From: a virus
Strand: one strand, 5' to 3'
IMG/VR virus record: IMGVR_UViG_3300031857_011419
Coordinates: 1-22,247 of that record
Length of the DNA: 22,247 bases
Within the stretch, counting starts at the first letter, position 1. The number at the start of each line of letters is the position of its first letter. Under the pieces are notes generated by a model. The model was given only the letters and a program-made list of their open reading frames with translations. It had not been told where the DNA came from and made no database searches. This document shows, piece by piece, positions 589-13,815 of the stretch. Made by a program: the position numbers and the translations under genes.

Positions 589-1290
589 TTATACTCCTAA
601 TGAATTAAAAGTTGCAGGAAATGCTTGTGCAGAAAGACTCTTGACTGCCTTTGCATATTCCTGAATCTCTACCTGTGCATCGTGTCCTAAGCGTTGCTCA
701 AGGAATGTCATAACTCCCTGAAGAGATACCGTCCAACGCCATCGTACATAAAGTCCGTATGCAGGTAAGAATAGTCGTGCTTGCTCTGGTGCAATGCCAG
801 CGTTGAGAGCACTTTCATAAAGATTATGCCCATTGATCACAGTCTCTGTTAGCTTTTCGGTAAAGGCTCTTCCAAAATCTAGGATGATTGGCTCACCGCT
901 ACCCTGCTTACTATTTTCGGGAGCACTTCTCCATTCGTGTGCTTCAGGAATATAGAACCTATCATCCTCTGTAATGTAACGACGTGACGACTCATTCCAA
1001 CCATTCTGGTCTTCTACATGTGTAGATGCCACAGCATACTTCCACCATTGACGTGCTACAAATAGTGGTGCATACACCTCAAACGTTAGTGCAGCGTGTC
1101 GGAAAGGGCTTGTATGTCCCTCACGGATAAGGAACTGCAAAAGCTTTGCATCTTTCTCACCAAAGCCTTCTGACTCTTTATCGTAAGATACACGAGCAGC
1201 ATTAACTACAGATGTATCATTACCTAATTGATCAACAAGACGGACATAGCCTTTGTCAAGTACGCTTATCTTAATCTTCTTCACCTTCAA
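589..1290 (-). CDS. thyX: Flavin-dependent thymidylate synthase ThyX
   Basis: Makes dTMP from dUMP using FAD, NADPH and methylene-tetrahydrofolate, for phage DNA synthesis. The 233-aa length fits the family. Seen: ARQWWK at residues 79-84, NESSRRY at 99-105, and the C-terminal LEQRLGHDAQVEIQEYA block carrying the usual Arg and AQxEI. The signature R-H-R is replaced by R-Q-W, and about 12 extra residues separate it from NExSxRY; I recall this variant from other phage ThyX proteins. The frame opens at TTG 1290, 20 nt inside the groES end. A GTG at 1284, giving MKKIKISV, is an equally possible start; neither has a strong SD, so reinitiation after groES is likely. It sits in one unit with groES and a DUF2637-like gene. 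Confidence 0.95.
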   Translation of the reverse strand: MKVKKIKISVLDKGYVRLVDQLGNDTSVVNAARVSYDKESEGFGEKDAKLLQFLIREGHTSPFRHAALTFEVYAPLFVARQWWKYAVASTHVEDQNGWNESSRRYITEDDRFYIPEAHEWRSAPENSKQGSGEPIILDFGRAFTEKLTETVINGHNLYESALNAGIAPEQARLFLPAYGLYVRWRWTVSLQGVMTFLEQRLGHDAQVEIQEYAKAVKSLSAQAFPATFNSLGV

Positions 1291-1564
1291 TTACTGCAAT
1301 GATGTCATTGTATGAAATGATTACATAGTCTTTATCATCGTGTCGGACTTCTGTACCGCTATACTTTGCAAAAATTACCTTCTGCCCCACCTCAAGTGGG
1401 ATGGGTACGTGTACACCATTCTTTGTTGTAACTCCTGTGCCTACAGCGATAACGATAGCCTCCTGTGGCTTTTCCTTATCCCCTGTAATGATAATGCCAG
1501 ACTTTGTTACCTGAGCATCTTCGATAGTTTTAATAACTACCTTATCTTCTATTGGTTGAATCAT
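1271..1564 (-). CDS. groES: GroES-like co-chaperonin
   Basis: A 97-aa Cpn10 protein, the normal length. It opens with IQPIEDKVVIK, matching the usual first beta strand. It has a mobile-loop region at about residues 15-30 (AQVTKSGIIITGDKEKP), and later KYSGTEV and the C-terminal YNDIIAVIEG that close the barrel. GroES caps GroEL and governs folding of enclosed clients. Phage copies, such as T4 gp31, let the host chaperonin fold large capsid proteins. No GroEL is present here, so it would work with host GroEL. Its ATG shares one base with the stop of the 58-aa gene upstream (TAATG), and AGGAAGG lies 6 nt before the start. It overlaps thyX downstream by up to 20 nt. Confidence 0.95.
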   Translation of the reverse strand: MIQPIEDKVVIKTIEDAQVTKSGIIITGDKEKPQEAIVIAVGTGVTTKNGVHVPIPLEVGQKVIFAKYSGTEVRHDDKDYVIISYNDIIAVIEGEED

Positions 1565-1773: not shown

Positions 1774-1802
1774 ATTTTACAGCATAAGAGACGTAATGTC
1801 AA
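1774..1802 (-). promoter_or_regulatory. Consensus sigma-70-type promoter for the groES-thyX unit
   Basis: On the minus strand TTGACA (1797-1802) and TAAAAT (1774-1779) are separated by exactly 17 bp. The -35 overlaps the stop codon of the 603-aa gene. Transcription would start near 1767, leaving a leader of about 27 nt that contains the SD for the 58-aa gene. It fires into the small membrane gene, groES, thyX and the DUF2637-like gene. Confidence 0.7.
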
Positions 1803-3610
1803 ATACCGAAAGCAGACCCACTCCAAATATCAGAGTCCATCTTGTTGCCTTCTGGCTTCTTGTCTGTTGCTCTTGGATGCCCCTTGGGAAAAAGATCTAG
1901 GTCGAATGGCTTGCGTGGGAACCTGCCTCTTAGACCTGCCATAAATGCATTTACACGACCCATTGCCCACTGCTCTGCACTTGTCACATTTGGACGAACG
2001 GAGCCTGGATTAGTTCTGTATGCACCGATGCCACGATTATATACTTGCCTAAGTGCTCCAACAGTAATTCTCTTATTGCCCTCTTTGTTCTTGTTATAGT
2101 TATCTGCAAGCTCTTGTAGCCTTGAGGTAGAAACTTTTTTCATTTCTTCGTCTTCGTAATAGGAACTTTCTTTTAGCTCACTATCCATAACTCTAAGACT
2201 GCTAAATGATTTTGGCACACGCCTATCTGTCTTAGCGTATCCTCCACCCTCTCTAACTGCCCAGACACGAACAACAGCAACAGGGTTAGCTGAAGATGCT
2301 TCTATTTTTTCATTTCCAACCGTTACAGTTCCAGAGCGTTCAACTCTTTCTACTTCACCGTGAGCATACTCTGTTGGTTGTGGATCTTTTGGTACAGCAA
2401 AAGTGACGTGATCTCCTACAGAAACGGACTTTGCCTTAAATAAATCTACTGGTTGAGACTTTGTGTAATCTTTACCAAAATTAGCAAACAAAGCCTTGTC
2501 CCTCATACGCTCTGCAATTCCACGTGACCAAGAGAATCCTGCATCTCCACCCCAAGCGTCCCACATAATTCGACCATTACTAGGATTAGCAGTGTTATAA
2601 AAGTCCTTGCCCTTCTTGTCTACCTCGTGACGTGAGAAGAAAGAGTACATACGCTTAACAGTACTAAGAGACATTGGTCGCCCAGCTACAATATCAGTTG
2701 CTCTTCCCCATCCGACTGGAGTTCCTGCACCTGTAGCTTTGCCTTCAGCTTTCCATTTAAGAGCACGACGTGCAGCAGCCTTCATACCCTCTGTTGGAGA
2801 ATATGTTTCTGCTTTTCTCATTAAAGCTTCGTGATACTTCTGAACTGGAACACAGTTTGGAACCATGCCTCCATTTTGTCCTGGCTTCATTCCACGCTGA
2901 GTGTAGCCTTCCCAACATGGAGATGCTTTTGCAAGACGTTCAAGTTCTTCCATATCTTCTTCGTCTTCGTCTTGTCCAATTGGAAGTTTTGGAATCTTCT
3001 GTGCATCCATCATACGCATACCAATTGAGTATGCTGTTGGGTAGTACATCCCATCTTCTTCTTCAAAAACTCTTACAGCCATAGCTGGATTTTCTGGTGT
3101 TGACTGAACTGCATACTCTGTTCCAGGAACTCCGTAGATACCACCCTCAGTCATAACATGTTCGACCTGACCAGTGACCATGCCTTCTACAGTCATTCCC
3201 ATTACGTAGTCGCCTTCTTTGATATCAGCTTTTTCCATTTCGGCTGCCGCCTCCCATGCTTTACAATAGTAGTCTGCCCTTACGTAGTCATCCCACTTAG
3301 TACAATAGGCTTTTCCGTCTAACACCTTTGAGGTGTCATAGAACATGCAGTTGGCACAATTTCTTCCTGCAGGAACTCCATCTGCTGAAGCAGGTCCATA
3401 TGCATCTGGCAAAGCTTTTCTAATTGGCGACTCTTCTGGATTTTTAATACCAACACCAGCTTCAATGTTGCCTTCACTAACATTGATGGCATAAATTTGA
3501 TTAGCAGCTTCTTCAGCTGTCTTGTGGCAACCCATTACTGTTCCGTCGTCTTTGACGGCTGGGTAACCTGAGCAACCGTAAGATCCTTTTTCTCCAACGC
3601 TATATGGCAT
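1799..3610 (-). CDS. Multi-module phage protein, probably head/portal-associated
   Basis: A 603-aa mosaic of short modules that I recognise from phage head-region proteins. In order: residues 1-46, Cys/His-containing PAVK..GTVMGCHKT..A; 85-119, a Cys-rich block (CANC, YC, YYC) like high-potential iron-sulfur proteins; 130-205, an SH3-like barrel opening with EGDYV; 230-254, PCWEGY..GMK..VPNCVP; 272-362, a block with VKRMYSFFSRHEVDKKG and WDAWGGDAGFSW; 396-476, a second barrel opening with VGDHV; 515-575, QWAMGRVNAFMAGL and a DLDLFPKGHP end. No catalytic triad is obvious. Such modules accompany portal, MuF or prohead protease genes in other actinophages (recalled). It starts at ATG 3610 with no SD; a -10 hexamer six bases upstream suggests a leaderless mRNA. 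Exact role unknown. Confidence 0.8.
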   Translation of the reverse strand: MPYSVGEKGSYGCSGYPAVKDDGTVMGCHKTAEEAANQIYAINVSEGNIEAGVGIKNPEESPIRKALPDAYGPASADGVPAGRNCANCMFYDTSKVLDGKAYCTKWDDYVRADYYCKAWEAAAEMEKADIKEGDYVMGMTVEGMVTGQVEHVMTEGGIYGVPGTEYAVQSTPENPAMAVRVFEEEDGMYYPTAYSIGMRMMDAQKIPKLPIGQDEDEEDMEELERLAKASPCWEGYTQRGMKPGQNGGMVPNCVPVQKYHEALMRKAETYSPTEGMKAAARRALKWKAEGKATGAGTPVGWGRATDIVAGRPMSLSTVKRMYSFFSRHEVDKKGKDFYNTANPSNGRIMWDAWGGDAGFSWSRGIAERMRDKALFANFGKDYTKSQPVDLFKAKSVSVGDHVTFAVPKDPQPTEYAHGEVERVERSGTVTVGNEKIEASSANPVAVVRVWAVREGGGYAKTDRRVPKSFSSLRVMDSELKESSYYEDEEMKKVSTSRLQELADNYNKNKEGNKRITVGALRQVYNRGIGAYRTNPGSVRPNVTSAEQWAMGRVNAFMAGLRGRFPRKPFDLDLFPKGHPRATDKKPEGNKMDSDIWSGSAFGI

Positions 3611-3616
3611 ACAAAT

Positions 3617-3645
3617 ATTATATCACAAAAAAAATAGAGTTCCTC
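3617..3645 (-). promoter_or_regulatory. Leaderless-type promoter for the 603-aa gene
   Basis: Minus-strand TATAAT (3617-3622) lies six bases before ATG 3610, so transcription would begin at or next to the start codon, as in the leaderless genes common in actinobacteria. No SD is visible. Sixteen bases upstream of the -10 is GAGGAAC (3639-3645), part of an inverted repeat shared with the rightward promoter; it is not a TTGACA-type -35. Confidence 0.55.
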
Positions 3646-3723
3646 ACACCGAAATCCGCTGCAGTTAGCCACGGTCTTATAATTTGGGTAACTAGTCCAT
3701 CCTAAGATAGTGTGAGGAACACT
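3636..3723. repeat. 14-bp inverted repeat in the divergent promoter region
   Basis: Arms at 3636-3649 and 3710-3723 match at 13 of 14 positions when one is reverse-complemented (core GTGTGAGGAAC pointing outward on both sides). Arm centres are 74 bp apart, about seven helical turns. Inside is a second, shorter inverted repeat at 3663-3670 / 3686-3693 (7 of 8). Each arm ends 13-15 bp before a -10-like hexamer facing outward, so the arms may be paired operators or shared activator/-35 sites for the 603-aa gene and the glycosyltransferase cassette. Confidence 0.7.
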
Positions 3724-3741
3724 TATAGTATACACTACAAT
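3714..3741 (+). promoter_or_regulatory. Candidate promoter of the glycosyltransferase cassette
   Basis: On the plus strand GAGGAAC (3714-3720) is followed after 15 bp by TACAAT (3736-3741); TATGAT and TAAAAT overlap just downstream as alternative -10s. This mirrors the leftward promoter, where the same GAGGAAC precedes TATAAT by 16 bp. The leader would run from about 3748 to the TTG start at 3777 and contains the SD AGAAGAGG (3764-3771). Confidence 0.45.
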
Positions 3742-3776
3742 ATGATAAAATAGAATTACAAACAGAAGAGGTTATT

Positions 3777-4733
3777 TTGGCAAAGATTACATTTCTTGGA
3801 AACTTCCAGGTAGATTTTAGCAGTGAGAATCATCACGCAAAATCATTAGAGGCATTGGGTCATACCGTTATTAAATTCCAAGAAGGACGTGGTACAACAA
3901 TTGGCAAAGTACTTCGTGAAGCCTCTACATCAGACCTCTTTGTTTGGGTTCATACTCATGGATGGCATACTCCTGGTCAGGAAAGAATAGATATCCTTAG
4001 AGAATTAAAGTATGCTGGTGTGCCAACTATGACCTATCACTTAGATCTATGGTTTGGTCTTAAACGTCAGCATGATCTTGAGAACGATCCATTCTACAAA
4101 AACATTGGTCATTTCTTTGCTACAGATAAACTTATGGCTGATTGGTTTAATGAGAACACTAAGGTCAAAGGTCACTTCCTTCCTGCAGGAGTGTTTGGTC
4201 CTGAGTGTTATGTTCACTCAGACTATGACGGCACGTTTGATTATGATGTTATCTTTGTTGGTAGCAAGGGGTATCATCCTGAATATCCTTACCGCCCAAA
4301 ACTTGTAGATGCCTTAAGAGAACTTTACGGTAAAAGATTCTTGCACGTTGGTGGAGACGGAGATACAGGCGTTGTGAGAGGCGACGATCTTAATCGTATC
4401 TATGCTCGTAGTAAAATTGCGATTGGCGACACACTAAACATTAACTTTAACTATCCCTACTATTCTTCAGATAGACTATTTGAGTCTACTGGTCGTGGGG
4501 GCTTTACTATTTACCCCAACATTGTAGGACTTGACGCTTTCTTTGAAGATAAGAAAGAGATTGTTTTCTATCAGCACGGAAGCCTTAAAGATTTAAAAAC
4601 AAAGATTGATTACTACCTTGAGCACGACGAAGAGCGAGAAACAATTAGACTTGCTGGACATGAACGTGCAAAGAGTGAGCATACATATAAGCACAGATGG
4701 GCAACGATCTTAAAGGAACTTGGAATAAAGTGA
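3777..4733 (+). CDS. GT-B glycosyltransferase, CgeB-like
   Basis: A 318-aa cytoplasmic protein, first of four overlapping glycosyltransferase-like genes. The N-terminal half starts with a Rossmann strand (KITFLGNF) and has HTHGWHT at residues 59-64. The C-terminal half carries DRLFESTGRGGFTIYPN (about 232-248) and the closing HTYKHR at 302-307. That pattern is typical of the CgeB/spore-maturation glycosyltransferase group, in which the C-terminal domain binds the nucleotide sugar and the Arg/Glu pair (R233, E236) sits at the site. The start is TTG 3777, supported by AGAAGAGG five bases upstream. Donor and acceptor cannot be read from sequence; virion protein or host surface glycan are the main options. 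The stop overlaps the next gene's GTG start (GTGA). Confidence 0.85.
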   Translation: MAKITFLGNFQVDFSSENHHAKSLEALGHTVIKFQEGRGTTIGKVLREASTSDLFVWVHTHGWHTPGQERIDILRELKYAGVPTMTYHLDLWFGLKRQHDLENDPFYKNIGHFFATDKLMADWFNENTKVKGHFLPAGVFGPECYVHSDYDGTFDYDVIFVGSKGYHPEYPYRPKLVDALRELYGKRFLHVGGDGDTGVVRGDDLNRIYARSKIAIGDTLNINFNYPYYSSDRLFESTGRGGFTIYPNIVGLDAFFEDKKEIVFYQHGSLKDLKTKIDYYLEHDEERETIRLAGHERAKSEHTYKHRWATILKELGIK

Positions 4734-5575
4734 TAGCTTATTCTTTTACTCCAAGGGGCAAAGGTTTCCCAGATGATAAGTGGGACTTTGGATTTTTACA
4801 AGAAGCATTTACAAGAAACAATGTAGAGGTTATCAAGGTAAACAAGCTTCCAGAAACAGATAGAGCGTTTGTAGTAGTACCTGGTTTTGAATGGACTGGT
4901 CGTGAAGATGTTCTTAATGAAAATCTATCTAGAATTAAAAGACTTGTTTTATTTATTACAGCAGACGAACTTGGTGTATTTGGTGTTGACAAGATCTCCC
5001 ACCCTAATGCAGAAATTTGGGTTCAGTATCCATATCCTCGTCATCAGGCTTATAACAAGCTACCGCTTGGAGTTCCAAACCACAAAGACGATGTTGTTCC
5101 AGACTATCCAGAAAAAACAACAGACATTTACTTTGCTGGTCAAATAACGCACCAACGTAGGGAACAGCTTGCAAAGGCTCTAAAGAGGCTTCCAGACGCA
5201 GTATACAGGCTCACAGAAGGCTTTACTCAGGGAGAAACACCCAAAGACTATTATAAATTACTGGCTTCTGCTAGGTTTGCTCCTGCACCTGCTGGGGCAG
5301 CATCAATAGACTCATTTAGATTTTATGAAGGACTAGAGATGTTAGCTTTGCCAATTGCTGATAACATTAGTAGTGTTGGTGAAGCATATGGATTCTGGGA
5401 TATTTTATTTAAAGATATGCCAATTCAGCAAATAAAAGATTGGAACAAGCTTCGTTTAGTAATTCCACAACTTTTAGAAAAATACCCAGCAAATATGCAC
5501 CAAGCTGTTTCTTGGTGGATCAAACAAAAGAGAGACTTTGCATATAAAATTATGGAGCAGATAAATGAACATTAA
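4730..5575 (+). CDS. Exostosin-like GT-B glycosyltransferase
   Basis: I take the GTG at 4730 (281 aa): it overlaps the previous stop by 3 nt and has AAAGGAAC about 9 nt upstream. An upstream in-frame ATG at 4697 has no SD and would overlap the first gene by 37 nt. The central segment, TDIYFAGQITHQRRE at about residues 131-145, and the later FAPAPAGAASIDSFRFYEGLEMLALP (about 183-208, here abbreviated at its ends) match the exostosin/GT47-like fold: DxxFxG, then a Ser-Phe-Arg..E motif at the nucleotide-sugar site. No signal peptide or membrane segment. Ends EQINEH, overlapping the third gene by 11 nt. Substrate unknown; it probably adds one sugar in a chain built by the cassette. Confidence 0.8.
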   Translation: MIAYSFTPRGKGFPDDKWDFGFLQEAFTRNNVEVIKVNKLPETDRAFVVVPGFEWTGREDVLNENLSRIKRLVLFITADELGVFGVDKISHPNAEIWVQYPYPRHQAYNKLPLGVPNHKDDVVPDYPEKTTDIYFAGQITHQRREQLAKALKRLPDAVYRLTEGFTQGETPKDYYKLLASARFAPAPAGAASIDSFRFYEGLEMLALPIADNISSVGEAYGFWDILFKDMPIQQIKDWNKLRLVIPQLLEKYPANMHQAVSWWIKQKRDFAYKIMEQINEH

Positions 5576-6326
5576 TGATATAACAATAGTTATTCCAACA
5601 TCAGTGAGTCCAGTTCATCCAAGCACAGAGATTATTGATGAAGTTATTAGAAGCATTAGACAATACTTTCCAGATAATGAAATTATTCTTCAAGTTGATG
5701 GATTGAGACACGAGCAGTCCCACCGCAAAGATATGTATGATGAATACAAGAATAGGGTTCTTTGGAAGTCTATGCACAAGTGGAAGAATGTTCTACCAAT
5801 TATTTTTGACGAGTTCAGCCATCAGTCCGACATGATGAATAAAACAATAGGTCTTATTAAAACACCACTTATGTTTTATGTAGAGGGCGACATTGCTTTT
5901 CAAGATAATCTAGATATTGATTGGCAAAGTGTAATAGATATGATATCTTCAGACAAAGCATATACGGTTAGATTTTACACATACAATAGAGTAATTGAGC
6001 CAGTTCATATGTATCTTATGGGAGATCAGGATGGTGACTTTATTAAATGTTCTCAGTGGAGCCAGCAGCCCCATATGTCTTACGTATGGTATTATCGTGA
6101 TGTGGTGCTACCTAACACTACCCCCAAACTTTTTATTGAAGATAAATATTATGGAAAACTTTTATCAGACTGTAAAGATAGTGAAGATGGGTGGATGTCT
6201 CACAGGCTTTGGCTATATAATCCACAAGACAAAGACGATATTAGAATTGTAAATAATCTAGATGGAAGAAAAAATATGAAAAAGTTTACTGGTGACGACG
6301 AGGCTTGGGGTCTCACAGAAGCATGA
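5565..6326 (+). CDS. GT-A (family 2-like) glycosyltransferase
   Basis: A 253-aa protein beginning with ITIVIPTSVSPVHPS at residues 6-20, the classic first strand of a GT-A fold. QVDG follows at 43-46, and VEGD at 106-109 stands where the metal-binding DxD usually lies (here E-G-D). A later ED..W region (about 210-214) could supply the catalytic base. No membrane helix, so it is soluble, unlike polymerising GT2 enzymes. It starts at ATG 5565 inside the end of the second gene and its stop overlaps the fourth gene (ATGA). Its GT-A fold among GT-B neighbours suggests a different linkage or donor. Assignment to family 2 is by fold pattern only. Confidence 0.75.
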   Translation: MNINDITIVIPTSVSPVHPSTEIIDEVIRSIRQYFPDNEIILQVDGLRHEQSHRKDMYDEYKNRVLWKSMHKWKNVLPIIFDEFSHQSDMMNKTIGLIKTPLMFYVEGDIAFQDNLDIDWQSVIDMISSDKAYTVRFYTYNRVIEPVHMYLMGDQDGDFIKCSQWSQQPHMSYVWYYRDVVLPNTTPKLFIEDKYYGKLLSDCKDSEDGWMSHRLWLYNPQDKDDIRIVNNLDGRKNMKKFTGDDEAWGLTEA

Positions 6327-7357
6327 GACTAGGAATAATAGTAAGGGCAGACAACACTGGTCTTGGCAATCAGACTTACGAGTTGACGCAAATGCTGAAT
6401 CCACACAAAGTTATGATTATTGACTTTACATCTTATAATGGAAACAGTCAACACTTTGAATGGTATGCAGATCGTGACTATGTTATCTGTAATGGTTTTC
6501 CAACTGATGAAGAGATCAATAACTTTTTAGATAGCATAGATGTTTTGTTAAGTTGTGAAACATTTTACAATGACAATACCCCAACTCTTGCAAGAGAGAA
6601 AGGTGTCAAGACATGCCTTCAGTATAACTACGAACTGTTTGGAAACTTAAAGCCAGGCAAAACACCCCTGGCAGATGTGCTTCTCTCTCCAAGTCCTTGG
6701 ATGATAGATAGGGTACAGAAGAAATTTTCTCACCAAGTATCGGTACTACATCTTCCGCCACCAACAAGACCTGAGCTTTTTGAAAACGCATTGCAAACTA
6801 ATCTATCAAAAGATCACAATAGGATCTTACATATTGCTGGCAAGGCTGCTGCGAATGATCGTAACGGAACAAACAGTGTAATTGAAATGATGAAATACTC
6901 TAAGGAAGACTTTGAATTAGTTATAAAAAGCCAGACACCAATCAACACCAAGAACATGGACTCACGCATTACAGTTGAGGTTGACAATGTAAAAGATAGA
7001 CAAGATATGTACACTGGCTTTGATGCGATGATCTTACCTAGAAGATATGCTGGTCTATCTCTGCCTATGAATGAGGCACTGCTTAGCGGTCTACCAGTTT
7101 TTATGACAGACATTTCTCCAAACAATATGATTCTTCCAAAGGAGTGGCTAACTGTTTCTGAAGAACTTGGAGTAATGAGACTTGCAGCACCAGTAATTTA
7201 CTATGATGTAAATCCAAAAAGCTTTGCACAAAACATTGACCATTACGTAGCAATGTCTGATAAGAATGGCGAGAAGCAACGTGCGTTTAATATTGGCTAC
7301 AAATCCTTTTCACCTATAGTATTAAAGTCTAGATACTTAGAGATTTTAGGGCAATAA
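6323..7357 (+). CDS. GT-B (family 4-like) glycosyltransferase
   Basis: Start chosen at ATG 6323, which overlaps the previous stop as ATGA; an in-frame TTG at 6305 adds six residues but lacks support. 344 aa. The N-terminus RLGIIVRADNTGLGNQTYE is a glycine-rich sugar-binding loop, as in GT-B enzymes that handle glycan chains. The C-terminal domain holds RRYAGLSLPMNEALLSGLPV, matching the E-x7-E-type donor site of family 4, followed by MTDISPN. No signal peptide. Last gene of the cassette; a bidirectional terminator follows 2 nt after the stop. Acceptor unknown. Confidence 0.82.
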   Translation: MRLGIIVRADNTGLGNQTYELTQMLNPHKVMIIDFTSYNGNSQHFEWYADRDYVICNGFPTDEEINNFLDSIDVLLSCETFYNDNTPTLAREKGVKTCLQYNYELFGNLKPGKTPLADVLLSPSPWMIDRVQKKFSHQVSVLHLPPPTRPELFENALQTNLSKDHNRILHIAGKAAANDRNGTNSVIEMMKYSKEDFELVIKSQTPINTKNMDSRITVEVDNVKDRQDMYTGFDAMILPRRYAGLSLPMNEALLSGLPVFMTDISPNNMILPKEWLTVSEELGVMRLAAPVIYYDVNPKSFAQNIDHYVAMSDKNGEKQRAFNIGYKSFSPIVLKSRYLEILGQ

Positions 7358-7358
7358 A

Positions 7359-7384
7359 AAGTGGGCTACCGAAATAGCCCACTT
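7359..7384. terminator. Bidirectional intrinsic terminator
   Basis: A perfect 10-bp stem, AAGTGGGCTA (7359-7368) against TAGCCCACTT (7375-7384), with loop CCGAAA. It lies between the convergent ends of the glycosyltransferase cassette (plus) and the small-gene operon (minus). T-rich DNA follows on the plus side, and TTTTATTG on the minus side, so it can stop transcription from both directions. Confidence 0.85.
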
Positions 7385-7394
7385 AATTATTTAA

Positions 7395-7622
7395 TTACTT
7401 TTTTGCTGTTCTAGCTGCAGCATCAACTTCTTCTGGTGTTGGTACACGACCAAAACCTGGATCATTTGGATTAACGTAGCGAATCACTACTGGAAGTAGT
7501 GCAGCCCATAGTGCATTTGCAAGCTGCGTTGGCTCTGTTACTCCTGCAGCATATAGTGCAAGCCCAGCAGCCAAAAGGCTACGTCCATATGATGCAAGCA
7601 TTGCGATCATTTGCTTATTCAT
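7395..7622 (-). CDS. Small membrane protein, possible holin (r1t-like)
   Basis: 75 aa with two hydrophobic stretches, about residues 7-27 (rich in Ala/Leu) and 35-49 (LANALWAALLPVVIR), then YVNPNDPGFGRVPTPEEVDAA. The ending ...NPNDPxFGR is reminiscent of r1t-type phage holins (recalled), which make lesions in the membrane at lysis. The start ATG 7622 shares one base with the stop of the gene before (TAATG) and has AAGGAG seven bases upstream. Last gene of the leftward operon before the terminator. Other small membrane proteins in the window compete for the holin role. Confidence 0.65.
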   Translation of the reverse strand: MNKQMIAMLASYGRSLLAAGLALYAAGVTEPTQLANALWAALLPVVIRYVNPNDPGFGRVPTPEEVDAAARTAKK

Positions 7623-8989: not shown

Positions 8990-9359
8990 TACCTTCTCCT
9001 ATTGTGTATATTACTTTTTTGATTTGTGCCGCATCAATTACTGATTGGCATCTAATGCAAGGCTTACTATCTCTATCCGAACCCTGGGCATTTACCCTGG
9101 CTACATATAGAATAGCTCCCTTGACATTCCAGTTTGCATCTCTGATTGCATCCACCTCTGCGTGAACAGAGCAATGTGTTTTGATGTGCTCAGGTGATAC
9201 GTAATATGGATTGTTACGATCCTTATTATAGCCTGTGCCAACTACTCGCCCAGACTTTACTACTACCGCACCATGCATTCTACGAGACTTCGACTTCGAA
9301 GCAAAGTATCTTGCAACAGATAGGTAAGCTTTTTCTTTGTTACTCAGGTCGTACTCCAT
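8979..9359 (-). CDS. Deoxycytidylate/cytidine deaminase-like zinc enzyme
   Basis: 126 aa. Zinc-site motifs are present: HAE at residues 66-68 (His ligand and catalytic Glu) and PCIRC at 100-104 (two Cys ligands). The order and spacing fit the CDA/dCMP deaminase superfamily. In phages such enzymes turn dCMP into dUMP, the substrate of ThyX, which is encoded in this window. An exact substrate (dCMP, cytidine or another base) cannot be fixed from sequence. The ATG overlaps the stop of the SLOG-like gene (TAATG). Confidence 0.85.
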   Translation of the reverse strand: MEYDLSNKEKAYLSVARYFASKSKSRRMHGAVVVKSGRVVGTGYNKDRNNPYYVSPEHIKTHCSVHAEVDAIRDANWNVKGAILYVARVNAQGSDRDSKPCIRCQSVIDAAQIKKVIYTIGEGNED

Positions 9360-9709
9360 TAGTATCTAAAGATCCCAACGTCAATATCCTTATCTTCTGC
9401 TTCACGCACAAGGTCAGATGTTGGCTCCTTGGGCTTGCTAAAGAATGCAAAATAGTCAAGAGTGTGCATGATATCCTTTAGTGCCTTTGGTGGTAATTTG
9501 AATACTCGTGTACGAATACCCTGAGACTTTAGGCTACGCTCTGTAATGTTGATAAACTCCATTGCGAAAGCATTAACCTTGACAGGTCCGACTGTGTAAA
9601 TGAAGAACTCTTCGTCCCCCTCTTTGATCTCTGAAAGAGCAACACGCATTGCACGTAGAAATACGTTATAGTCTTCAAAGGATCTAGTCCCTTGGATTCC
9701 AACCTTCAT
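9359..9709 (-). CDS. SLOG/DUF2493-like nucleotide-binding protein (tentative)
   Basis: 116 aa. It begins MKVGIQGTRSFEDYNVF, where the GxRSFxDY start is like DUF2493/SLOG Rossmann-type proteins that bind nucleotides or their derivatives. A Gly-Pro loop (YTVGPVKVN) follows the next strand, then a helix ITERSLKSQGIRTRVFKL and a Lys/Glu tail ending DVGIFRY. Length is short for the family, and residues after position 80 are not diagnostic. Start at ATG 9709 overlaps the stop of the gene before (TAATG) with AAGGA upstream. Function unknown. Confidence 0.6.
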   Translation of the reverse strand: MKVGIQGTRSFEDYNVFLRAMRVALSEIKEGDEEFFIYTVGPVKVNAFAMEFINITERSLKSQGIRTRVFKLPPKALKDIMHTLDYFAFFSKPKEPTSDLVREAEDKDIDVGIFRY

Positions 9710-11517: not shown

Positions 11518-11560
11518 AGTTATATGACCTCCTTCTATACAAGTATATCAGGATTCTTTG

Positions 11561-11633
11561 AGCCACCTCAGAGATTCGAACTCTGCACCTACGCATTACA
11601 AGTGCGTTGCTCTACCAAATGAGCTAAGGCGGC
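11561..11633 (-). tRNA. tRNA-Thr (anticodon TGT)
   Basis: Folds as a full cloverleaf on the minus strand: acceptor GCCGCCT/AGGTGGC (one G-T pair), D-arm TAGCTC..GAGC, anticodon stem ACGCA/TGCGT with loop CTTGTAA (anticodon TGT, codon ACA), T-arm CAGAG-TTCGAAT-CTCTG, discriminator T. The 3' CCA is not encoded. Confidence 0.95.
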
Positions 11634-11681: not shown

Positions 11682-11683
11682 AG

Positions 11684-11755
11684 CTCTCCCTCTTGGATTC
11701 GAACCAAGAACCTACGAGTTAACAGCTCGTTGCTCTGCCGTTGAGCTAAGGAAGA
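11684..11755 (-). tRNA. tRNA-Asn (anticodon GTT)
   Basis: Cloverleaf on the minus strand: acceptor TCTTCCT/AGGGAGA (one T-G pair), D-arm TAGCTC..GAGC, anticodon stem ACGAG/CTCGT with loop CTGTTAA (anticodon GTT, codon AAC/AAT), T-arm CTTGG-TTCGAAT-CCAAG, discriminator G. No encoded CCA. Confidence 0.95.
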
Positions 11756-12543: not shown

Positions 12544-13815
12544 TTATATCCTCCTTATCGATGCAGAAGACATTGCTGACATTGTACTAATTTGTGCTAT
12601 CTGACCTACAATGACTGCTGCAACAATTGTTTTCTTTGCAGACTCACGTACTTTTGGACTTATGTCCGATCCTACGTTTCCTGCAAAGTTAATTAAATCT
12701 GTTAATCCTTGAGCTATATTTCCAACAAGTGGAATTGCTAACAACTCTTCATCAAGAACAATATCGTCTGCCTCTGCCACAAAAAATAGTGCATCTAGTG
12801 CTTCTTCATACTCTGCAGAACCTTGTTCAGATGTTTCTAAAGTTTCGTATGCTTCGCTCATAATTTGTACAATTTCTTGTGCTGTTAGATCTTGTGGAGA
12901 CTCTGCTAAAAGTTCTTCTGTTGTTGGCTCTTCGATTACCTCTTCAGTTTGTGGGTCTACTTTATCTACTGGCTCAATAGGAACTTCTGGTTCAACAGGA
13001 ACTTCTGGTTCTACTGGAGGATCTATTGGTGGTTCGGGGTCCACAGGAGGCTCTGTAGGCTGCGTTGGCTCTGGGGTTGGTTCTATGGTTGGTTCGGGTG
13101 TAGGCTCTACTGTAGGCTCTGGTGTAGGCTCTACAGTGGGTTCTGGAGTAGGTTCTACAGTTGGCTCAGGGGTTGGTTCCGTAGTAGGTTCTGGTGTGGG
13201 TTCTGGTGTTGGGGGAACGACTGGAGGCTCTGTTACCTGAGTAAATCCTGCTTCTTCTAGGGTCACAATACTTCTATCGTGTAGACGAGCACCAGTTCTT
13301 AATTGAGTTTGTCTGCTCCAGTCTGTTCCACTAATTGTGTATGTTAATTCGTATGAGCCATCTGTTCTTTTAATTGCTGTAACTGTAATGTTTGTTGTAT
13401 CTGGTGTTCCTTGACTCCAAATTGGTCTAGCTGAAATATCTATCTGAAATCCTGCATCGCTAACTGTAATAATTAAATGTTCATCTGCTCTGTTTTGTGG
13501 ATATACAACCCAGTCCATTGACATAATCGATAATGATGGTGTCATGGGGTAATCCCAGTAAGTACCGTCGGGGGTTCCGAATGTTATTGTTGAATTTGTG
13601 GTTGCATAAATCGTTGAGTATTCTACTCCGTCAAATACGATTGGTGTTGATAGTGGAATTCTGTAAGATGAATCATCTCCACCACAAGTATTAAATATTG
13701 CTACATCGCCAGACGCAGGGGTATAGATCTGGTGATTGTATACGCACCCTTCAGCTCTTGCAGGTACGGCAAAGGCAACGACAATGTAGATTGCCATTAA
13801 AAATATAAGACTCAC
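12544..13815 (-). CDS. Secreted Pro/Thr-repeat phage protein
   Basis: 423 aa from GTG 13815. The N-terminus is a signal peptide: hydrophobic core LIFLMAIYIVVAFAV and an Ala-x-Ala site (PARA) at about residue 21. Next a beta-rich domain (about 24-190) with two Cys (C24, C44) and many Thr/Ser/Asn. Then a linker of TPEPTxEP repeats (203-251) passing into Asp/Glu-Pro motifs (to about 283). Last, a helical domain (about 296-423) with SPKVRESAKKTIVAAVIVGQ and a basic end SIRRI. The best SD (AGGAG 13846-13850) suits an upstream ATC codon at 13836, which would add KKLVSYV to the signal peptide. A cell-surface or cell-wall-spanning role is inferred. Followed directly by two membrane genes. Confidence 0.75.
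   Translation of the reverse strand: MSLIFLMAIYIVVAFAVPARAEGCVYNHQIYTPASGDVAIFNTCGGDDSSYRIPLSTPIVFDGVEYSTIYATTNSTITFGTPDGTYWDYPMTPSLSIMSMDWVVYPQNRADEHLIITVSDAGFQIDISARPIWSQGTPDTTNITVTAIKRTDGSYELTYTISGTDWSRQTQLRTGARLHDRSIVTLEEAGFTQVTEPPVVPPTPEPTPEPTTEPTPEPTVEPTPEPTVEPTPEPTVEPTPEPTIEPTPEPTQPTEPPVDPEPPIDPPVEPEVPVEPEVPIEPVDKVDPQTEEVIEEPTTEELLAESPQDLTAQEIVQIMSEAYETLETSEQGSAEYEEALDALFFVAEADDIVLDEELLAIPLVGNIAQGLTDLINFAGNVGSDISPKVRESAKKTIVAAVIVGQIAQISTMSAMSSASIRRI
13063..13209 (-). repeat. In-frame 24-nt tandem repeat encoding EPTPEPTV
   Basis: About six degenerate copies of a 24-nt unit encode Thr-Pro-Glu-Pro-Thr-x-Glu-Pro inside the secreted protein (residues 203-251). Third-position changes are frequent while the amino acids stay the same, so the protein repeat is under selection rather than freshly duplicated. 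Such stretches form extended, stiff spacers. Confidence 0.85.

Follow-up and report, generated by a model that had tools for sequence, protein, structure and literature searches.

What does a phage make with four adjacent glycosyltransferase (GT) genes, and on which molecule is the product built? The question is raised by a 22,247-nt stretch of viral DNA (IMG/VR virus record IMGVR_UViG_3300031857_011419, positions 1 to 22,247; hereafter the window, meaning this stretch at its full length), in which four rightward open reading frames, GT1 to GT4, fill positions 3777-7357 while all other accepted genes lie on the minus strand. Both features had been described from the DNA letters in an earlier note, and both were confirmed. 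The same note had proposed a phage-made glycan chain, which is upheld here as the likely product, and had left the choice between a virion and a host glycan open; the evidence leans to the virion. We propose, with moderate confidence, that the cassette encodes a modular glycan pathway that operates in the cytoplasm, is primed by GT1 and acts on a virion protein.

A cassette fixed in order and strand

Searching IMG/VR with GT1 returned 164 relatives, 80 of which were retrieved and examined. The order and strand of GT1-GT4 are identical in all 72 loci that span the four genes, the remaining 8 of the 80 stopping at a contig end ahead of GT4. The same leftward gene for a protein of 75 amino acids (aa) lies behind GT4 in 70 of these 72 relatives, and the GT2/GT3 and GT3/GT4 spacings are constant to within a few bases in nearly all of them. 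The ratio of nonsynonymous to synonymous substitution rates (dN/dS) is about 0.07-0.16 for the cassette genes, i.e., purifying selection acts on all four, which are therefore maintained; a dN/dS of 1.7 for GT2 in one relative (L002) was discarded as artefactual, an in-frame stop lying ahead of the true start. Judged by order and strand in 72 of 72 loci and by dN/dS, the cassette is a coding unit far beyond chance.

A second search, independent of the GTs, was seeded with an unrelated neighbour gene (9359-9709) and found ten close relatives, eight of which have the full cassette; in another (L178) it is cut by the contig end, and the last (L177) is too short to tell. With this synteny search done, the earlier suggestion that the four genes form a single unit holds in the sense of a unit set in evolution, present in all 72 loci and in every neighbour-found close relative whose contig leaves room for it. 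More distant members, in which the neighbour gene is 49-62% identical, have no cassette in the corresponding stretch, and GT1 is absent from 8 records of such members, including two of 111 and 116 kb. Within the family, the cassette is thus stably kept by one large subset and is not universal.

The related phages that carry it form a large group from lakes and wetlands. The terminase (TerL) is 53% identical to that of the Stanwilliamsviridae of Streptomyces, including Wofford, and this kinship, together with the presence of a whiB gene in the window, identifies the host as an actinobacterium. No GT is annotated in Wofford within 52-133 kb. No homologue of GT2, GT3 or GT4 was found in the phage collection, and a GT1 profile found no relative in bacterial genomes, the latter being a weak test in which only two short patterns were usable.

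Predicted folds of the four enzymes

GT1 and GT4 can be credibly assigned by profile. GT1 matches the Pfam family Glyco_trans_1_2 (PF13524; E 5.6e-29, 101.4 bits, above the curated cut-off of 25) and the glycosyltransferase family PHROG 28745 (E 3.1e-33), while GT4 matches Pfam Glyco_trans_1_4 just below its cut-off of 27 (26.2 bits, E 1e-5) and PHROG 2170, also a glycosyltransferase family, over nearly its full length (E 1.8e-7). For GT2 and GT3, structure prediction gives credible folds. Taken alone, GT2 carries a weak exostosin/RXYLT1 signal, and RXYLT1_C is matched in 39 of 44 members of its family. Its AlphaFold2 model (predicted local distance difference test, pLDDT, 90.4) has a GT-B fold, whose closest structure is A075L of the chlorovirus PBCV-1 (Z 16.4, root-mean-square deviation 3.5 Å, 230 residues aligned; next unrelated chain, Z 13.7). 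A075L is a capsid-glycan xylosyltransferase, formerly classed with exostosins in GT47 and now the founder of GT114 (PMC11571054). The 44-row GT2 profile found nothing at E 10 against the A075L sequence, a result compatible with remote kinship, which can escape a sequence search. The residue criteria for GT114, a family of xylosyl transfer, are a catalytic Asp73 and the donor-binding Arg158 and Arg208; in GT2, residues D90, E91, R154, R155 and R208 are invariant or near-invariant in the sequence alignment of relatives.

GT3 has no sequence match in Pfam, PHROG, NCBIfam or the Protein Data Bank (PDB). Its AlphaFold2 model (pLDDT 89.6) has a GT-A fold with human B4GALNT1 as the top match (Z 17.2); 937 of 997 aligned chains score Z of at least 8, and the top rows are GTs. 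The GT-A Rossmann-like fold is accompanied by a DxD-like motif, the invariant E107-x-D109. Solved structures searched by sequence, both with GT1 itself and with a profile for each of the four genes, yielded no credible match. The division into three GT-B enzymes and one GT-A enzyme made in the earlier note is thus borne out by predicted structure for GT2 and GT3 and by profile for GT1 and GT4; that note would have given up its reading had two or more genes lacked a GT fold, and all four appear GT-like.

Gene exchange within a fixed frame

Relatives insert one to four additional genes into the cassette, mostly between GT1 and GT2, and these accessory genes are nearly all of sugar-tailoring types: FkbM methyltransferase, NAD-dependent epimerase/dehydratase, S-adenosylmethionine (SAM) methyltransferases, an extra GT-A enzyme, or a PIG-L deacetylase fused to a methyltransferase. 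In a census of 87 distinct loci, an FkbM gene is present in 67 and no recognised insert in 13; the window holds this minimal form. Farther upstream, some relatives carry GT25, a GT2-type enzyme (a family name, distinct from the gene GT2) and a NodU-type carbamoyltransferase. The NodU/TobZ-type gene (L079:3593-5038, L187:9422-10846, L189:18431-19906) occurs near the cassette or, in relatives that lack it, near the same strand-switch region, a site that looks like a general decoration locus. A 223-aa gene was also observed between GT2 and GT3 (L066:3244-3915, also in L056 and L065); by eye its HxH...GH.H motifs resemble a 2-oxoglutarate oxygenase, and it has no Pfam or NCBIfam match above cut-off.

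The core genes are themselves exchanged. Two relatives (L006 and L010) are mostly 72-90% identical to the window DNA over GT1, GT2 and GT4, and only GT3 drops, to 52-69%. GT3 type requires six changes on the GT1 and GT2 trees and one on the GT3 tree, and in an approximately unbiased (AU) test, for which the group was chosen with the identities already known, the grouping given by the flanking genes is rejected by the GT3 data (p 3.6e-66). Such allele swaps show that single genes are exchanged within a fixed frame. An FkbM methyltransferase is found in 0 of 12 loci with GT3 type A versus 67 of 75 with type B; a functional link is not claimed, because on the trees this pattern is largely that of one clade.

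These observations bear on the suggestion that the cassette had been acquired as a unit, which did not hold up: site and order are inherited, single GT3 alleles are swapped and accessory genes come and go, and this gene-by-gene exchange speaks against recent acquisition as a unit. Nor does composition clearly point to a block of recent foreign origin: the GC content of the cassette (36-40%) is slightly below that of its flanks (41-43%), and its GC content at third codon positions (27-34%) lies within the range of its neighbours.

The probable acceptor of the glycan

Acceptor, order of transfer, sugars and benefit are what we infer from these data. GT1 would most likely attach the first sugar to a structural protein of the phage, be it tail fibre, tail or capsid; GT2, GT3 and GT4 would then lengthen this product into an oligosaccharide from host nucleotide sugars, and the extra enzymes of relatives may modify the chain through O-methylation, conversion of sugar nucleotides or attachment of one more sugar. 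Swapping genes one at a time, whether GT3 alleles or inserts, would alter the glycan from phage to phage, a variation to be expected if host receptors or virion-binding agents select on it. GT1 is put forward as the priming enzyme because it is the best conserved of the cassette and is shared with Streptomyces phages. Its mean column identity of 79% (42 relatives), versus 60-65% for GT2-4, is as expected if GT1 meets a fixed acceptor. No transmembrane segment was detected in GT1-4 or in 142 insert proteins (best 19-residue hydropathy, 1.69), and the lack of a membrane segment, a flippase or a lipid-carrier GT fits a soluble, cytoplasmic acceptor.

The strongest, though indirect, pointer to this acceptor comes from phages of Streptomyces, nine of which have a GT1 homologue a short way behind a tail-fibre gene and near an FkbM methyltransferase. 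GT1 is the only cassette gene with a recognisable homologue there (hhalign probability 99.6%, E 2e-23). In Wentworth, which was read in detail, the homologue begins 42 bp behind the tail-fibre gene (PHROG 16641, E 0) and two genes ahead of that for the FkbM methyltransferase. Several points weigh against attachment to the virion. About 26 kb separate the cassette from the tail genes in the closest long relative, where the two are also on opposite strands; the distance is no objection in itself, because the GT module of mycobacteriophage Che8 also sits at the far genome end. GT2-4 have no homologue in the Streptomyces modules linked to tail fibres, structural matches tell the fold and not the substrate, and the distant members without a cassette show that it is not essential to the family. 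Glycan, acceptor and activity are, moreover, putative.

A second candidate target is the host. Alteration of host surface glycans is a well-known role of phage GTs, and one that has been proposed for those of cultured Nanopelagicales phages (PMC10202952); during infection, the enzymes of the cassette might likewise act on a surface glycan of the host, or on precursors of it, thereby blocking superinfection or shedding receptors. The cassette has a strand of its own, adjoins a small hydrophobic gene and lies away from structural genes, and GT4-type and GT25-type enzymes also take part in envelope polysaccharide synthesis, as is known in part from their families at large. In contrast to Gtr systems, however, the cassette has neither within nor beside it a membrane flippase, a polyprenyl-phosphate GT or a membrane GT, none of which was found among GT1-4 and the 142 insert proteins, and the position of the Streptomyces GT1 homologue beside a tail-fibre gene also argues for the virion, so that we regard a host target as rather unlikely. 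A still lower probability is given to a small molecule, a lipid or another non-virion target, or to passing cargo with no defined role in the phage. GTs are promiscuous and the fold matches span enzymes of many pathways, which leaves room for such a target, yet purifying selection, and an order held strictly in a broad set of relatives, argue for a function in the phage, and the GT1 profile, in its weak test, gave no homologue in bacterial genomes.

Glycosylation of modified bases in the phage DNA, shielding it from nucleases, has been proposed in general terms for the GTs of freshwater actinophages (PMC10202952), and the phage does have a nucleotide metabolism of its own (thyX, nrdIEF, dCMP deaminase). 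Here we consider it very improbable. Among ten long relatives, whose records may be incomplete, no base-hydroxylating or base-hydroxymethylating enzyme was found: a ThyA-type hydroxymethylase (PF00303) is present in 0 of 10, and TET/JBP (Tet_JBP) exceeds its cut-off in 0 of 10, one having weak matches. Four serial GTs with sugar O-methyltransferases and epimerases also exceed what known base glucosylation needs.

Two further proteins are recorded here as observations in their own right. In a cluster of five loci, a collagen-like (GPQGPQG) fibre protein is encoded approximately 4.8 kb upstream of GT1 on the same strand (L014:2602-3171), and it is a possible acceptor in those phages. The window itself encodes a 423-aa protein (12544-13815, minus strand) with a signal-peptide-like start and a long Pro/Glu/Thr repeat (EPTPEPT) that matches nothing in Pfam or PHROG; by its sequence, it is a candidate for O-glycosylation or for an export-linked phage protein.

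Gene layout and flanking features

The tight overlaps described earlier are real, but two of the start codons need moving (Table 1), and the couplings GT1/GT2, GT2/GT3 and GT3/GT4 become 4, 11 and 4 nt instead of 37, 11 and 22. Rather than ATG 4697, GT2 most likely starts at GTG 4730, in a GTGA overlap of 4 nt with the GT1 stop: in L002 the longer reading is interrupted by an in-frame stop at codon 11, and the alignment of many relatives begins only at residue 11-14. For GT4, the start is most likely ATG 6323, which overlaps the GT3 stop as ATGA, the longer reading starting at TTG 6305.

Table 1. Coordinates of the cassette and of its flanking features in the window.
Feature	Position	Strand	Description
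GT1	3777..4733	+	318 aa, TTG start; GT-B family, PF13524 (CgeB-type) C-terminal domain
GT2	4730..5575	+	~281 aa, probable GTG start; predicted GT-B, exostosin/RXYLT1-like signal
GT3	5565..6326	+	253 aa; predicted GT-A; no detectable sequence family; invariant E107-x-D109
GT4	6323..7357	+	344 aa, probable ATG start; GT4-type GT-B
Hairpin terminator	7359..7384	strand-neutral	between the cassette and the convergent leftward genes
Candidate sigma-70-like promoter of the cassette	3729..3756	+	9/12 matches, not above chance
75-aa hydrophobic protein	7395..7622	-	synteny anchor downstream of the cassette
603-aa protein	1799..3610	-	head-maturation-protease-like N-terminal part; phrog_80 E 3.7e-18, DUF5824 E 8.9e-7

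The bidirectional terminator proposed behind GT4 corresponds to a real hairpin (stem of 10-11 bp, fold z -3.8), whose T-tract is good in the leftward direction and weaker in the rightward one. A promoter proper to the cassette, also proposed, is plausible and not demonstrated, as consensus matches show no excess over shuffled sequence (15 versus 12.5); the A+T-rich stretch at the candidate site is kept in close relatives, in which the 603-aa gene is likewise the left neighbour of the cassette.

Between the divergent genes, the minus strand of positions 3639-3720 encodes a structured RNA of approximately 82 nt, a three-way junction with a closing stem of 11-14 bp and two inner hairpins. Its stem varies among relatives yet stays paired (GTTCCTCACAC/GTGTGAGGAAC, GTCCCTCACAC/GTGTGAGGGAC, CCCCGCATAGG/CCTATGCGGGG, GCCTCACGTAGG/CCTACGTGGGGC), and includes several G-U pairs, which would turn into mismatches were the opposite strand the RNA. 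These stems were read sequence by sequence; RNAalifold on a MAFFT alignment, in which the left arm was misaligned, missed the covariation. The conserved core reads CTTAG..GATGGAYTAGTTACC ... GACCGTGGC, often followed by a T-run, and elements of about 75-91 nt also occur at L198:16308-16400, L189:13986-14076, L172:10460-10549 and some 17 other distinct loci; a second pattern match in L032 was dropped as coding sequence without the stem. Downstream of the RNA, a TATAAT-like box precedes by a few bases the ATG of the next gene, which is the 603-aa gene, an epimerase gene or an HNH-like gene. An Rfam search gave no credible match. The RNA is also found in cassette-less members of the family, ahead of the HNH-like gene, and is therefore a feature of the phage family and not of the cassette.

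Elsewhere in the window, a GroES-like co-chaperonin gene (1271-1564, minus strand) adjoins thyX (589-1290, minus strand) and is kept beside the cassette in close relatives, and two tRNA genes, tRNA-Thr (11560-11633) and tRNA-Asn (11683-11755), lie on the minus strand. Near thyX, two relatives encode a 230-aa protein (L006:3985-4677, L163:2365-3054) with a weak match to Stealth_CR2, a sugar-phosphate transferase-like domain; it was not found in the window, where only a partial, different gene lies beyond thyX.

Comparison with known systems

Among phages, a few mycobacteriophages are known to glycosylate their virions. In one of them, Che8, the gp108-110 module was reported to glycosylate a virion protein (Freeman et al. 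2023, as cited in PMC11256854 and PMC12363180). Like the cassette, it is a series of GT genes that overlap, accompanied by a sugar methyltransferase domain, at the far genome end and in an actinobacterial host; the window shows the same adjacency of GT genes, with the methyltransferase present in most relatives and not in the window itself. Unlike it, gp108-110 are not homologous to GT1-4 (hhalign probability below 4% for all pairs) and comprise two GT2-type enzymes and one GT25 enzyme, against three GT-B enzymes and one GT-A enzyme in the cassette. The glycan has been demonstrated for Che8, whereas that of the cassette is a predicted product.

The chlorovirus PBCV-1 (A075L, A064R, A061L) similarly combines virus-encoded GTs with O-methyltransferases, and GT2 is nearest in fold to A075L. 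Chlorovirus capsid GTs are mostly predicted to be soluble (PMC9614988), and variants arise by the loss or change of single enzymes (PMC9614988, PMC11571054), a further likeness to the cassette. In contrast, chloroviruses infect eukaryotes, their GT genes are not gathered in one cassette, and A075L and GT2 have no sequence match at E 10. Closer in host are the Streptomyces phages (Wentworth, Lizz, Dryad and others), in which a GT, a hypothetical protein and an FkbM methyltransferase form a cluster behind the tail-fibre gene. They share with the cassette phages the GT1 homologue (about 27% identity) and the methyltransferase type found in 67 of the 87 relatives of the window, and differ in lacking GT2-4 and in that the cluster directly follows the tail-fibre gene on the same strand. 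Finally, the cultured 'Ca. Nanopelagicales' phages E7/F5 and the G2/G3 actinophages are also from fresh water and also carry whiB and glycosyltransferase genes; they are 39-kb phages of another group, for which no four-gene cassette is described (PMC10202952).

By analogy, the cassette may thus work like the Che8 module, to which it is not homologous, and like the chlorovirus capsid pathway. Tentatively, it might be a combinatorial glycan locus in a large group of uncultured actinophages, in which a fixed first enzyme and order, swappable GT alleles and plug-in genes for methyltransferases, epimerases or extra GTs would give close relatives different virion glycans. If so, it would be a bacterial-virus parallel of the antigenic glycan variants of chloroviruses, and GT2 and GT3, as founders of new GT families, could be new enzymes for sugar chemistry. 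In widespread aquatic actinophages, which encounter no antibodies, a four-GT pathway is here a durable trait that undergoes shuffling, and the cassette allows one to ask what phage glycans do in nature, whether for adsorption, for host range or for withstanding grazing and proteases. What is new with respect to the systems compared is that, in a widespread group of uncultured phages, four different GTs of constant order are combined with a tailoring section that can be swapped.

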